Below, in pieces: positions 6,101 to 39,154 of a stretch of 42,361 nucleotides of DNA. The stretch is from Actinotalea fermentans ATCC 43279 = JCM 9966 = DSM 3133 (lineage in GTDB: Bacteria; Actinomycetota; Actinomycetes; Actinomycetales; Cellulomonadaceae): positions 1 through 42,361 of the forward strand of contig AXCX01000010.1 in NCBI GenBank assembly GCA_000767215.1, in the 5' to 3' direction. The first letter of the stretch is position 1, and the number at the start of each line of letters is the position of its first letter. Made by a program: the position numbers and the translations under genes. A model generated the notes under the pieces. The model made no database searches. It saw only the letters and a list, made by a program, of their open reading frames with translations, and was not told the origin of the DNA.

Positions 6101-6895
6101 GTGTCCCAGGAGTCGCTGGAGCCGCTCGAGCAGGACCCCACGCTGTCCGAGGACGGCACCGACGAGACGCTGCCCGACGAGACGCTGCCCGCCGAGGCCG
6201 CGGACGTCGAGGACGAGGCCACCGAGGTGGCGGACGACGAGGTCGAGGCCGCGGACGAGCCCGAGGCCGCCCCGCTCGCCGCCGAGGACGACTCCGACGA
6301 GATCCTGGACCCGGTCGCCGAGTTCAAGGGGAAGCTGCGTCGCCTCCCGGGTGACTGGTACGTCATCCACTCCTACGCGGGCTACGAGAACCGCGTGAAG
6401 GCGAACCTGGAGAACCGCATCCAGAGCCTCAACATGGAGGACTACATCTTCCAGGTCGAGGTGCCCATGGAAGAGGTCGTCGAGATCAAGAACGCCCAGC
6501 GCAAGGTCGTGCGCCGGGTGCGGATCCCGGGCTACGTCCTCGTCCGGATGGACCTGACCGACGAGTCGTGGGGCGCCGTCCGGCACACGCCCGGCGTGAC
6601 CGGCTTCGTCGGGCACACGCACCAGCCGGTGCCGCTGACGCTCGACGAGGTCTTCTCGATGCTCGCGCCGACCCTGGCGCCGGCGGCCGCGCCGCAGAAG
6701 GCCGCCGCCGCGCAGACGATCGACGTCGACTTCACCGTCGGCGAGTCCGTCACCGTCACCGACGGCCCCTTCGACACGCTGCCCGCGACGATCTCCGAGA
6801 TCAACGCCGAGGCGCAGAAGCTCAAGGTGCTCGTCTCGATCTTCGGCCGGGAGACCCCGGTCGAGCTGTCGTTCAACCAGGTCGCCAAGATCTGA
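6101..6895 (+). CDS. nusG: transcription termination/antitermination protein NusG
   Basis: 264 residues, longer than the roughly 180 of E. coli. Residues 1-84 form an acidic Glu/Asp/Ala-rich tail. The NGN domain starts at D85-W86 ([19 protein letters not shown]) and contains [10 protein letters not shown] linker rich in Ala/Pro leads to the KOW domain ([21 protein letters not shown]), ending [11 protein letters not shown]. It binds RNA polymerase to modulate pausing and links it to the ribosome. GTG 6101 has AAGCAGG upstream. Acidic N-terminal extensions are usual for actinobacterial NusG. Confidence 0.96.
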
Positions 6896-8299: not shown

Positions 8300-8330
8300 C
8301 GCATCCGCACCACGCCCGCCCTACACGACC

Positions 8331-8484
8331 GTGTGGAGCGCTCCCGACCGATGTGGAGCGTTCCCGACCGACACGCCGGCGTGTCGGGTCGGGAACGCTC
8401 CACTCGTGGCCGGTGCGCTCCACTCGTGGCCGGTGCGCTCCACTCGTGGCCGGTGCGCTCCACTCGTGGCCGGTGCGCTCCACT
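8331..8484. repeat. seven-unit, 20-bp-period array around a 14-bp palindrome
   Basis: Units 1 and 2 (8331-8350, 8351-8370) are direct copies with 18/20 identity, each containing TGTGGAGCG and TCCCGACCG. A perfect palindrome ACACGCCGGCGTGT follows at 8371-8384. Unit 3 (8385-8404) is the inverted counterpart of units 1-2. Units 4-7 (8405-8484) are four identical copies of CGTGGCCGGTGCGCTCCACT, inverted relative to units 1-2. All seven share TGGAGCG on one strand. Units 2 and 3 with the palindrome form a 51-nt near-perfect inverted repeat (8353-8403, one bulge). It lies between the rplA terminator and the rplJ promoter. Short frames across it look repetitive and are not convincing genes. Confidence 0.9.
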
Positions 8485-8537
8485 CGTGTCGGCCGTGTCG
8501 GCCGCGCGGGGTCGCGGCGTGCGGTTGGCGCGCGGAT

Positions 8538-26456: not shown

Positions 26457-27283
26457 TGGGACAGAAGGTCAACCCGCACGGGTACCGCCTCGGGATCACG
26501 ACCGACCACCGGTCGCGCTGGTTCGCCGACAGCACCAAGCCCGGGCAGCGCTACCGCGACTACATCCGCGAGGACGTGCAGATCCGCAAGCTCATGGCCA
26601 CCGGCCTCGAGCGTGCCGGTATCGCCAAGGTCGAGATCGAGCGCACGCGTGACCGCGTCCGTGTGGACATCCACACGGCCCGGCCGGGCATCGTCATCGG
26701 TCGTCGTGGCGCCGAGGCCGACCGCATCCGCGGCGAGCTCGAGAAGCTCACGGGCAAGCAGGTCCAGCTGAACATCCTCGAGGTCAAGAACGCCGAGCTC
26801 GAGGCCCAGCTGGTCGCCCAGGGCATCGCCGAGCAGCTCGCGAGCCGCGTCTCGTTCCGCCGCGCGATGCGCAAGGGCATGCAGTCCGCCCAGCGCGCCG
26901 GCGCCAAGGGCGTCCGCGTCCAGTGCTCCGGCCGCCTCGGCGGCGCCGAGATGAGCCGGTCGGAGTTCTACCGCGAGGGTCGTGTGCCGCTGCACACGCT
27001 CCGCGCGAACATCGACTTCGGCACCTTCGAGGCCCGGACCACCTTCGGCCAGATCGGAGTGAAGGTCTGGATCTACAAGGGCGACATGACCGAGAAGGAG
27101 TTCGCCCGCGAGCAGGCCACGCAGGCCCCCCGCGCCCCGCGCGGTCGCGGCGACCGTCCGGACCGGCCCGCCCGCGGCCCGCGTCGCGAGCGCACCGAGG
27201 CCCCCGCCGAGGCTGCTGCCGAGGCTCCGGCCCCGGTCGCCGCTGAGGCCACGGAGACCACCACGAGCGGAACGGAGGCCTGA
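26456..27283 (+). CDS. rpsC: 30S ribosomal protein S3
   Basis: 275 residues. [23 protein letters not shown] starts it. The KH domain contains [21 protein letters not shown], and the C-terminal domain has [28 protein letters not shown]. The last 60 or so residues are a disordered Arg/Asp/Pro then Ala/Glu-rich tail, as in other actinobacteria. It forms part of the mRNA entry channel and its helicase activity. GTG 26456 overlaps the rplV stop. Confidence 0.98.
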
Positions 27284-30834: not shown

Positions 30835-31206
30835 ATGGCTATCACGATCAAGGGCAAGGGCAAGGCCATCTCGCGTGCCCGCCGCCACCTGCGCCTTCGC
30901 AAGAAGGTCGCCGGCACGGCCGCGCGGCCGCGCCTGGTGGTCACCCGCTCCAGCCGGCACATGGTCGCCCAGGTGGTGGACGACGGCGTCGGCCGCACCC
31001 TGGTCTCGGCGTCCACGCTCGAGGCAGACCTGCGCGCCTTCGACGGCGACAAGACCGCCAAGGCACGTCGTGTCGGCGAGCTCGTCGCCGAGCGAGCCAA
31101 GGCCGCCGGCATCGAGGCCGTCGTGTTCGACCGTGGTGGCAACAAGTACCACGGCCGGGTCGCGGCGGTCGCCGAGGGCGCCCGCGAAGGCGGGCTGGCC
31201 CTGTGA
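30835..31206 (+). CDS. rplR: 50S ribosomal protein L18
   Basis: 123 residues. [37 protein letters not shown], then [39 protein letters not shown] and [25 protein letters not shown], are family blocks. It binds 5S rRNA with L5. ATG 30835 gives the usual MAI- start. GTG 30829, which overlaps the rplF stop and has GGAAAGG at 7-nt spacing, may be the real initiator and would add two residues. Confidence 0.95.
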
Positions 31207-31246
31207 CCGCCCACGTCATCACCGTACGGAAGCAGAGGAAGCACTG

Positions 31247-31888
31247 ATGGCTGCACCGCAGCGCAGCAACACCGGAGCCCAGGGCGCCGGCGGGGGCGAC
31301 CGGCGCGAGCGTGGCGACCGCCGGGACAACCGTCGCGGCGGCCCCGAGCAGGCCGAGAAGAGCGCCTTCCTCGAGCGCGTGGTTGCGATCAACCGCGTCT
31401 CGAAGGTCGTCAAGGGCGGTCGTCGCTTCAGCTTCACCGCGCTCGTCGTGGTGGGTGACGGCGACGGCACCGTCGGCGTCGGCTACGGCAAGGCCAAGGA
31501 GGTGCCCGCCGCGATCGCGAAGGGCGTGGAGGAGGCCAAGAAGAGCTTCTTCCGCGTGCCCCGCATCCAGGGCACCATCCCGCACCCCGTCCAGGGTGAG
31601 GCCGCCGCAGGCGTCGTCTTCCTCCGGCCCGCGTCCCCCGGTACCGGCGTCATCGCCGGTGGCCCGGTCCGCGCGGTCCTGGAGTGCGCCGGCGTCCACG
31701 ACATCCTGTCCAAGTCGATGGGCTCGTCGAACGCGATCAACATCGTGCACGCCACGGTGGCGGCCCTGCGCGGGCTCGAGGAGCCCGAGTCGGTCGCCGC
31801 TCGCCGCGGCCTGTCCGTCGAGCACGTGACTCCCGCCGCGCTCCTGCGTGCGCGTGAGGCCGGCGTGGCCGCGAAGGCAGGTGCATGA
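31247..31888 (+). CDS. rpsE: 30S ribosomal protein S5
   Basis: 213 residues. A basic, Gly/Arg/Asp-rich head (about 1-35) precedes [59 protein letters not shown], the S5 double-stranded RNA-binding signature. [35 protein letters not shown] follows. It affects decoding fidelity and spectinomycin response. ATG 31247 has GAGGAAG upstream. The stop overlaps rpmD. Confidence 0.98.
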
Positions 31889-32070
31889 TGCCCCGGCTCA
31901 AGGTGACCCAGACCCGGTCCGTCATCGGCGGCAAGCAGAACCAGCGCGACACGCTGCGCAGTCTCGGCCTCAAGCGCATCGGCGACATCGTCGTCAAGGA
32001 GGACCGACCTGAGATCCGCGGCATGGTCGCCACGGTGGCGCACCTCGTCACCGTCGAGGAGGTCGAGTGA
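31888..32070 (+). CDS. rpmD: 50S ribosomal protein L30
   Basis: 60 residues. [60 protein letters not shown]-type sequence matches L30 over its whole length. The second of two adjacent ATGs is chosen to match the 60-residue family length; the first (31885) makes an ATGA overlap with rpsE and adds one Met. Confidence 0.96.
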
Positions 32071-32072
32071 CC

Positions 32073-32813
32073 ATGGCAGAGAACAAGAAGGACGCCGCCG
32101 CTGACGCGGAGGCGACCGAGAAGAAGCCCACGCGCAAGCCCGCGGCCAAGGCCGAGACGGCTGCCGCCGAGAAGCCTGCCAAGGCGACCAAGGCGAAGGC
32201 CGACGCGCCCAAGGCGGAGACCAAGGCTGCGGCGGACAAGCCCGCGAAGGCGGCGAAGGCCGACGCGCCCAAGGCCGAGACCAAGGCCGCGGCCGACAAG
32301 CCCGCTGCCAAGGCCACCAAGGCTGCGGCGAAGGCGGACGCCCCCAAGGCGTCCACCCCTGCCGAGGGCCTCGGCGGCACCCTGCGGGTGCACCACCTGC
32401 GGCCGGCGCCGGGCGCCCACACGCCGAAGACCCGCGTGGGTCGCGGTGAGGGCTCCAAGGGCAAGACGGCGGGTCGCGGTACCAAGGGCACGAAGGCGCG
32501 CTACCAGGTTCCGGAGCGGCGCGAGGGTGGCGGCATCCCGCTGCACATGCGCCAGCCGAAGCTGCGCGGCTTCAAGAACCCGTTCAAGACCACCTACCAG
32601 GTGGTCAACCTCGACCGTCTCGCCGAGCTGTACCCCGCCGGTGGCTCGGTGACGGCCGAGGACCTCGTGGCCAAGGGCGCCGTCCGCAAGGGCCAGCCGG
32701 TCAAGGTCCTCGGGGTCGGCGACGTCGCGGTGAAGCTGGACGTGTCCGTCACGGCCGTCTCGGCGACCGCGCGCGAGAAGATCCTCGCCGCCGGAGGATC
32801 GGTCCAGGACTGA
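32073..32813 (+). CDS. rplO: 50S ribosomal protein L15 with a long Lys/Ala-rich N-terminal extension
   Basis: 246 residues against roughly 145-155 for the family. The normal L15 core starts near residue 104 ([40 protein letters not shown]) and ends [12 protein letters not shown]. Residues 1-103 are Ala/Lys/Glu/Pro-rich and repetitive: unit [16 protein letters not shown] begins at residues 42 and 62, with a third partial copy at 87. The extension is in frame with no stop and no internal start with a good ribosome site before the core. ATG 32073 has GAGGAGG 10 nt upstream; GTG 32067 overlaps the rpmD stop. Last gene of the spc unit before a terminator. Confidence 0.95.
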
Positions 32814-32970: not shown

Positions 32971-34269
32971 GTGCTCAGCGCATTCGCCCGAGCTTTCCGG
33001 ACGCCAGACCTGCGGCGCAAGCTGCTTTTCACCATCGGGATCATGGTTGTGTTCCGGATCGGCTCGTTCCTGCCGACCCCGGGCGTCGACTACCCGAACG
33101 TCCAGCAGTGCGTGGACGAGATCGGCACGAGCAACGACCTGCTCGGCCTGGTGAACCTCTTCAGCGGCGGCGCGCTGCTGCAGCTCGCCGTCTTCGCGCT
33201 CGGCATCATGCCGTACATCACCGCGAGCATCATCATCCAGCTGCTCCGCGTGGTGATCCCGCGCTTCGAGGCGCTCCACAAGGAGGGCCAGTCGGGCACG
33301 TCGAAGCTCACGCAGTACACGCGCTACCTGACCATCGGTCTGGCGATCCTGCAGTCGACGACGATCATCACGATCGCGCGCAACGGCCAGCTGTTCCAGA
33401 GCTGCTCCGTCCCGGTCATCGCCGACGACTCGATCATGACCGTGCTCCTCATGGTCATCACCATGACCGCCGGTACCGCGATGATCATGTGGCTCGGCGA
33501 GCTCATCACCGAGCGGGGCATCGGCAACGGCATGTCCCTGCTGATCTTCACGCAGATCGCGGCGCAGTTCCCGACCGCCATGTGGTCCATCGCGACCGGC
33601 GACAACGGCGTCACCAAGTTCATCATCGTGGCGCTCGTCATCCTGCTGGTGATCGGGCTCGTGGTGTTCGTCGAGCAGTGCCAGCGGCGCATCCCGGTGC
33701 AGTACGCGAAGCGCATGGTCGGCCGGAAGATGTACGGCGGCTCGAGCACCTACATCCCGATCAAGATCAACATGGCCGGCGTCATCCCGATCATCTTCGC
33801 GTCGTCGCTCCTGGCGATCCCCGGCCTCATCACGCAGTTCGCGGACCCCACCGAGGACTGGGTGCAGTGGGTCGCGCGCAACCTCGCGGCTCAGGACGCC
33901 CCGCTCAACATCGGGCTCTACATCGTCCTGATCATCTTCTTCGCGTACTTCTACACGGCGATCACGTTCAACCCGGACGAGGTCGCGGACAACATGAAGA
34001 AGTACGGCGGCTTCATCCCGGGCATCCGGGCCGGCCGCCCGACGGCGGAGTACCTCGACTACGTCCTGTCGCGGATCATGGCACCCGGCTCGCTCTACCT
34101 GGCGTTCGTGGCGATGATCCCGCTGATCACGTTCATCCTCCTGGACCTTGGTACCAACATTCCCTTCGGCGGAACCTCGATCATCATCGTGGTCGGTGTC
34201 GGCATGGAGACGGTCAAGCAGATCGAGTCCCAGCTGCAGCAGCGTCACTACGAAGGGTTCCTCAGATGA
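32971..34269 (+). CDS. secY: preprotein translocase subunit SecY
   Basis: 432 residues with ten predicted membrane helices. It opens MLSAFARAFRTPDLRRKLLFTIGIMVVFRIGSFLPTPGVD; SecY signatures include NLFSGGALLQLAVFALGIMPYITASIIIQLL (plug region) and, in the C-terminal half, YGGFIPGIRAGRPTAEYLDYVL. It is the channel of the Sec translocon and pairs with the SecE encoded at 5705. GTG 32971 follows GGAGGAGCAG; a longer frame from 32899 lacks family similarity. The stop overlaps adk (ATGA). Confidence 0.98.
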   Translation: MLSAFARAFRTPDLRRKLLFTIGIMVVFRIGSFLPTPGVDYPNVQQCVDEIGTSNDLLGLVNLFSGGALLQLAVFALGIMPYITASIIIQLLRVVIPRFEALHKEGQSGTSKLTQYTRYLTIGLAILQSTTIITIARNGQLFQSCSVPVIADDSIMTVLLMVITMTAGTAMIMWLGELITERGIGNGMSLLIFTQIAAQFPTAMWSIATGDNGVTKFIIVALVILLVIGLVVFVEQCQRRIPVQYAKRMVGRKMYGGSSTYIPIKINMAGVIPIIFASSLLAIPGLITQFADPTEDWVQWVARNLAAQDAPLNIGLYIVLIIFFAYFYTAITFNPDEVADNMKKYGGFIPGIRAGRPTAEYLDYVLSRIMAPGSLYLAFVAMIPLITFILLDLGTNIPFGGTSIIIVVGVGMETVKQIESQLQQRHYEGFLR

Positions 34270-38578: not shown

Positions 38579-39154
38579 ATGCCCACGCCAACCAAGGGTC
38601 CGCGGCTCGGCGGCGGCCCGGCGCACGAGCGGCTCATGCTCGCCAACCTGGCGACGAGCCTGTTCGAGCACCGGCGCATCACCACGACCGAGACGCGCGC
38701 GAAGCGGCTCCGCCCGCTCGCTGAGCGGCTCATCACGTTCGCCAAGCGCGGCGACCTGCACGCGCGTCGTCGCGTGCTCACGGTCGTGCGCGACAAGAGC
38801 GTCGTGCACGAGCTGTTCACCGAGATCGCGCCGATGATGGCCGAGCGCAACGGTGGCTACACCCGCATCACCAAGATCGGTCCGCGCAAGGGCGACAACG
38901 CCCAGATGGCGGTCATCGAGCTGGTGCAGGAGCCCGTCAGCCCCAAGCAGGCGACGGTGCGCGAGGCGGAGAAGGCGACGAAGCGCGCCGCGACGAAGAA
39001 GGCCGAGCCGAAGGCCGCTCCCGTCGAGGAGCCTGTGGCCGACGAGGCCGTCGTCGAGGACGGCCCGGTCGAGGAGACCGCCACCGAGGCTCCGGCCGAG
39101 GAGACCGCCGAGGCGACCGAGGCTCCGGCCGAGGACGAGGCCGAGAAGGCCTGA
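38579..39154 (+). CDS. rplQ: 50S ribosomal protein L17 with acidic C-terminal tail
   Basis: 191 residues. [58 protein letters not shown] is the L17 core with its signature. The core ends around residue 120 ([11 protein letters not shown]). The last 65-70 residues are Ala/Glu/Pro-rich and repeat [11 protein letters not shown]-like units; an extended L17 tail is common in actinobacteria. Close to the tunnel exit. AGGAGTTAAGAG precedes ATG 38579. Last gene of the ribosomal block; truA is not next. Confidence 0.97.

Follow-up and report, generated by a model that had tools for sequence, protein, structure and literature searches.

The ribosomal protein uL15 (L15) of Actinotalea fermentans begins with a tail of 103 residues, which precedes a normal L15 core. 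The tail is maintained at the protein level by purifying selection, and its composition is held while its length is nearly free. It is a real but lineage-specific addition, of a type known from other ribosomal proteins. The reading favoured here, at a probability of roughly 0.6, is that the tail is a tolerated, unstructured and weakly cationic bristle on the ribosome surface, which has grown by repeats, is filtered for composition and stays on the ribosome.

The L15 gene is located on the forward strand of the window, which is the whole stretch of DNA analysed (42,361 nucleotides). It belongs to the spc operon and lies between rpmD (uL30, an ORF at 31885-32070, forward strand) and an ORF that ends at 34269 and was named SecY-like by reading. 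The start codon is the ATG at 32073. The stop codon of rpmD (32068-32070), which serves as the anchor for the L15 start, is two bases upstream, and a Shine-Dalgarno sequence, GAGGAGGT (32056-32063), is placed inside the 3' end of rpmD with a gap of 9 nt to the ATG. The 103 codons of the extension (32073-32381), rich in Ala, Lys, Pro, Thr, Glu and Asp, are followed by the core, which begins at Leu104 (from 32382) and, together with the stop codon, ends at 32813. A Pfam profile search matched residues 177-244 to PF00828 with 62 bits against a cut-off of 21.5, the single match of this family in the A. fermentans genome, and the best PDB match of the core is the uL15 of entry 9qt5. A long N-terminal extension ahead of a normal L15 core had been proposed in a sequence-only reading of this DNA, and the ORF, the Shine-Dalgarno sequence, the 103 residues and the PF00828 core bear it out. 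The same reading considered a frame error in 32073-32380; the tail is not a frame artefact, because all 19 genomes of the genus carry such a tail in frame. Among the 74 long tails (at least 30 residues) in the genomes compared, a Shine-Dalgarno sequence is present at the upstream start in 72, and frame 0 is the best or tied for the best in 1049 of 1051 ten-codon windows.

The tail was delimited in the relatives by one rule: the rpmD stop codon is the anchor, the next ATG or GTG is the start (an ATG shortly after a GTG being taken in preference) and the first leucine of the core is the end. One locus per genome was counted in 278 genomes, 208 from the order and 70 from the rest of the class. 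The rpmD gene is next to L15 in all 278, adjacency being a condition of counting. The count leaves out G067 (no start by the rule), G052 (no rpmD, contig edge) and G112 (gene split over contigs), as well as the genomes without an L15 match, namely 2 of 61 in the family, 2 of 149 in the order and 9 of 148 in the class. The class sample consists of the best 30 loci and 43 chosen regions, which are a part of all class matches.

All 19 genomes of the genus possess the tail, at lengths of 38-153 residues, and the tail of one of them (G004) is identical to that of Actinotalea ferrariae. Within the order, tails of at least 30 residues occur in 72 of the 208 genomes with a usable locus, nearly all of them in four families: f1 (45 of 73 genomes, a family over-sampled at 73 of the 208), f9 (10 of 10), f19 (8 of 9, with 49-81 residues) and f20 (8 of 8). 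Family f13 has one such tail in 10 genomes, and the other 15 families have none among the 208 genomes. The length varies from 6 to 153 residues within f1 and from 34 to 256 within f20. Tails of at least 30 residues are found in 2 of the 70 genomes from the rest of the class, both of them Lys-poor (6 and 10%), and 59 of the 70 have 6 or fewer residues. Family f1 appears to take in Cellulomonas and Promicromonospora, and f19 is probably Microbacterium. A separate list of 80 named best-hit loci, which is outside these counts and in which the groups were picked by record title, contains long tails in 9 of 9 Cellulomonas isolates (51-103 residues) and 8 of 8 Microbacterium (36-61 residues), and short ones in 23 of 23 Streptomyces (5-6 residues) and 6 of 6 Nocardioides (2 residues).

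A leader of at least 5 residues is present in 205 of the 208 genomes of the order, and 144 of the 208 start with MAE or MAD. The short leader is therefore general in the order, and the long tails are added on top of it. A FastTree tree of the 278 genomes, weak in that it is built from about 350 columns of S5, L30 and the L15 core, requires at least 15 changes between long and short (30 residues), as compared with about 65 when the labels are shuffled. Collapsing the branches with a support below 95 leaves at least 8 changes versus about 44 with shuffled labels, the count being blind to gain versus loss.

The A. fermentans tail without the methionine is composed mainly of 40 Ala, 22 Lys, 9 Pro, 9 Thr, 8 Glu and 7 Asp. 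The richness in Lys, Ala, Pro and Asp noticed in the sequence-only reading is correct for all four, with the amendment that Thr and Glu are as frequent as Asp. The tail has 15 acidic and 23 basic residues and a net charge of +8 over 103 residues. Pooled, the long tails (5938 residues) contain 35.9% Ala, 20.5% Lys, 9.7% Glu, 8.9% Pro, 7.5% Thr and 0.9% Arg, and Phe, Trp, Tyr and Cys each amount to 0.0%. The ratio Lys/(Lys+Arg) is 0.96 in the long tails versus 0.59 in the cores that these genes encode; arginine codons should come easily in these GC-rich genes, yet arginine is rare in the tails. The median net charge of a long tail is +6 (range -6 to +17; 69 of 74 are positive and 5 are zero or negative), the median charge per residue is +0.083, and the tails of family f20 have a net charge near zero on average.

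Two 60-bp units of 20 residues each, detected by TRF and by sequence comparison, occupy 32196-32255 and 32256-32315 on the forward strand, and a partial third unit, KADAPKAS, was recognised by sequence comparison at 32331-32354 on the same strand. This confirms the repeat structure described earlier, two units and a partial copy at 32331. TRF reports a period of 60 with 94% matches over 32192-32305. Over their first 54 nt the two units are separated by four synonymous codon differences and one Lys/Ala change, a pattern in keeping with a duplication maintained at the protein level. The exact number of 60-bp copies is the least certain item, because the assembly is split into 841 contigs, of which the window is one, in full length. 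Tandem repeats were detected by TRF in 55 of the 74 long tails, in none of the 74 cores and in 18 of the 74 codon-shuffled tails, so that low complexity alone explains a part of the repeats and not most of them. The best period is divisible by 3 in all 55 repeat-bearing tails. The longest L15 tails, those of three f20 loci (L069, L259 and L324; 256, 186 and 152 residues), hold large internal repeats, 183-bp x1.9, 102-bp x3.5 and 54-bp x4.9. The window has further repeats outside the L15 gene: overlapping tandem repeats of 15-30 bp at 6159-6270, which read as acidic units within an ORF and possibly belong to the N-terminal region of NusG, and a perfect 20-bp tandem repeat of 4.7 copies at 8396-8488, which is adjoined by a 2.3-copy 20-bp repeat at 8326-8371.

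Selection on the tail was analysed in all 28 pairs with a core identity of at least 95%, which share genomes and are non-independent. The codons of one partner were shuffled as a control, giving the aligner equal freedom. The pN/pS ratio is 0.41 for the tail, 0.80 for the codon-shuffled control and 0.09 for the core, and the tail lies under its own control in 28 of 28 pairs. An earlier set of 15 hand-picked pairs (0.31 for the tail versus 0.11 for the core) is superseded by these values. When residues are aligned in the tails, Lys is retained in 85%, Ala and Pro in 81%, Glu in 71%, Asp in 68%, Thr in 57% and Ser in 52%, which makes Lys the best retained of the commonest tail residues; Gly, which is rarer, is retained in 92%. 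Six ungapped pairs of equal length have a core identity of at least 90%. Four of these are close pairs with a low pN, and the remaining two are far pairs with a pN of 0.44-0.51, about equal to pS; the tail therefore soon becomes unalignable.

The composition of the tail is consistent with disorder. AlphaFold2 assigns a pLDDT of 43-51 and no secondary structure to residues 1-100, which is weak evidence because the model scores poorly throughout (mean 56.4). Among the best 60 of 63 PDB sequences matched there is no uL15 with such a tail; the listed bacterial matches begin at the core, and the nearest among these 60 (9qt5) has 151 residues. Pro8 of uL15 contacts Trp34 of uL4 in bacterial 50S structures (PMC4881015), and the C-terminal tail of uL4 in C. 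acnes, 100 residues longer than that of E. coli, is exposed to solvent and lacks density (PMC10085706). By analogy with these other species, the uL15 tail would exit on the solvent side near uL4.

The sequence-only reading had called the extension histone-H1-like and likened it to actinobacterial nucleoid proteins. The likeness to H1 stands for composition and general look; a relationship is not supported. No Pfam family matches L15 residues 1-100 at E up to 1, the globular winged-helix domain of linker histones is absent from the tail in the Pfam search, and the net charge of the tail falls short of the strongly cationic values generally ascribed to H1. A relation to nucleoid proteins fares no better, for neither a Pfam match in the tail nor an HU domain (PF00216) in the L15 protein was obtained by the Pfam search, and the A. 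fermentans genome has no PF00216 match. HupB as the source of the tail was rejected, HU not being found in this genome. HU is matched in 56 of 61 genomes of the family; A. fermentans and four more have no match, and one HU-less genome of the same genus (G011) is a single-contig genome. The idea of a copied cassette was also rejected, since the genome holds no convincing second copy (five other matches, E 0.07-0.19). HupB-type actinobacterial nucleoid proteins have tails rich in Lys, Ala and Pro (AKP-rich). The L15 tail has a similar make-up; it differs in the lack of an HU domain and in a charge weaker than that commonly attributed to HupB-type tails.

According to the favoured reading, an ordinary L15 start codon would lead to a 103-residue unstructured tail before the uL15 core. 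The tail would grow and shrink by in-frame duplication of units of Ala and Lys codons at the 5' end of the gene, and this expansion would be tolerated because the N-terminus of uL15, next to uL4, most likely faces the solvent. Selection would act on the composition, favouring Lys over Arg together with Ala, Pro and acidic residues and avoiding aromatics, and would constrain the length very little. With disorder and solubility as the filter, the product would be a soluble, disordered, weakly cationic bristle. It would probably stay on the 50S subunit, where it may contact RNA or neighbouring ribosomes weakly and non-specifically. The retention of Lys and the near absence of Arg count against a plain bristle, as they hint at a charge-specific role that it would not need. 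A bolder reading, less likely than the bristle, is that at this site on the ribosome surface the uL15 N-terminus became, independently in several actinobacterial families, a long disordered tail that is functional, Lys-selected and nearly Arg-free. The function, put forward just as tentatively, might be weak multivalent contacts that set the spacing, clustering or storage of ribosomes, which would make the tail a bacterial counterpart of the H1-like tails on insect ribosomal proteins.

Several other explanations bear on the same observations. The Lys-rich tail might bind 23S or precursor rRNA and thereby aid the assembly or stability of the 50S subunit. Selection on Lys and the net positive charge of 69 of 74 long tails speak for this, and disordered extensions act in 50S assembly (PMC2672003, the accessible text of which does not mention L15). 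It is nevertheless rather unlikely, given that tail length and residue order are free, that the charge per residue is small, with zero or negative values in 5 of 74 tails and an average near zero in f20, and that the majority of genomes in the order and class lack such a tail. As to the added rRNA contact suggested in the sequence-only reading, the weak charge (+8 over 103 residues) speaks against a strong clamp and is still compatible with a weak contact. Unlikely to a higher degree is a tether, whose weak multivalent contacts, made among ribosomes or to mRNA or DNA, would influence where ribosomes cluster or localise: the 15 acidic residues of the A. fermentans tail offset its 23 basic ones, even if the composition resembles that of the H1-like tails on ribosomal proteins of insects (PMC548281, PMC11883427) and a link to nucleic-acid binding has been described for low-complexity stretches rich in lysine (PMC6821194).

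Removal of the tail after translation, which would leave mature ribosomes with the core only, is very improbable in view of the selection on tail composition and of the comparable mosquito RPS6 tail, which stays on the ribosome (PMC548281). Still less probable is a handle for pupylation and degradation, in which the lysines and the floppy end would help the Pup-proteasome to dismantle L15 or ribosomes. The A. fermentans genome does have a Pup match and the tail offers 22 lysines, but all nine sampled f19 genomes are without a Pup match, yet eight of the nine are long-tailed (49-81 residues), and pupylation was rejected as a general cause on this ground. Pup (PF05639) was found in 138 of 149 genomes of the order; besides the nine of f19, it is missing in two f4 genomes. 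The chance that the tail is untranslated, with initiation near the core and the stretch a leader RNA or an annotation artefact, is close to negligible. Some in-frame ATG, GTG or TTG precedes the core in 47 of the 74 long tails, and an in-frame start with Shine-Dalgarno-like letters lies within 15 codons of the core in 15 of the 74. The 103-residue A. fermentans tail, however, contains no in-frame ATG, GTG or TTG, which disfavours initiation near the core at this locus, a possibility that the sequence-only reading had kept in view. The first later in-frame starts are the GTG codons at Val106 and Val122, both within the core and both without a Shine-Dalgarno sequence by the rule used. Across the long tails, moreover, the frame and codon-level selection are kept and the Shine-Dalgarno sequence is at the upstream start in nearly all.

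With this tail, uL15 probably joins the ribosomal proteins that have large disordered tails. The tail lengths, which range from almost nothing in some relatives to 256 residues, form a natural series for measuring the cost and use of a tail. The case also cautions that such parts are missing from the ribosome structures now available. For mass-based typing, the calculated mass of L15 is about 25.0 kDa with the tail and about 15.1 kDa for the core alone.

Other ribosomal proteins encoded in the window have tails of their own. bL17 (38579-39154) ends in an acidic Ala/Glu tail, 73 residues long and with a net charge of -11, and such C-terminal tails, of 48-90 residues and a net charge of -1 to -16, are present in all 28 genomes of the family compared. 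Tail length in bL17 and L15 is not significantly correlated in these 28 genomes (rho 0.36, p 0.06), nor is charge (rho -0.17, p 0.38). bL21, a reported neighbour of uL15 (PMC4881015), ends 1-2 residues past its core in 28 of 28 family genomes. Both comparisons started from 30 loci each, less G039 and G067, which have no L15 value. An ORF read as S3 has an Arg-rich and then Ala/Glu-rich C-terminal tail (approximately 27100-27283), and one read as S5 has a Gly/Arg-rich N-terminal tail (approximately 31200-31370), both names being given by reading.

Lineage-specific disordered extensions of ribosomal proteins combine a conserved core with a variable low-complexity terminus, and L15 has this organisation. 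Low-complexity tails occur on numerous ribosomal proteins of bacteria, for example S2, S16, L25, S3, L17 and L21 (PMC6821194), and uL4, uL5 and bS16 of C. acnes have disordered extensions (PMC10085706). As far as these sources were accessible, such tails are disordered and, like that of L15, lineage-specific and terminal, many are rich in Ala, Glu and Lys, and they often lack density in cryo-EM maps. The L15 tail is N-terminal and Lys-rich, whereas the known bacterial tails are mainly Ala/Glu. L15 does not figure among the proteins for which the accessible part of PMC6821194 lists at least 20 low-complexity orthologs. A description of an L15 tail in actinobacteria was not recognised in the accessible open-licence literature; the available text of PMC10039652, PMC2672003 and PMC5071890 contains nothing on it, and that of PMC11764897 contains only the insect H1-like cases again.

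These insect cases are the C-terminus of mosquito RPS6 and the N-termini of Drosophila L22 and L23a (PMC548281, PMC11883427). The resemblance of RPS6 to H1 was judged convergent, and its tail is retained on the mosquito ribosome (PMC548281). The tail described here is the N-terminus of a bacterial uL15, that is, it belongs to another protein and another domain of life, and its retention on the ribosome is a prediction. It nevertheless resembles the insect tails, as far as the accessible text describes them, in its size (about 100 residues in Aedes), in its Lys/Ala-rich, low-complexity sequence attached to a ribosomal protein that is normal elsewhere, and in being fast-evolving and lineage-specific.
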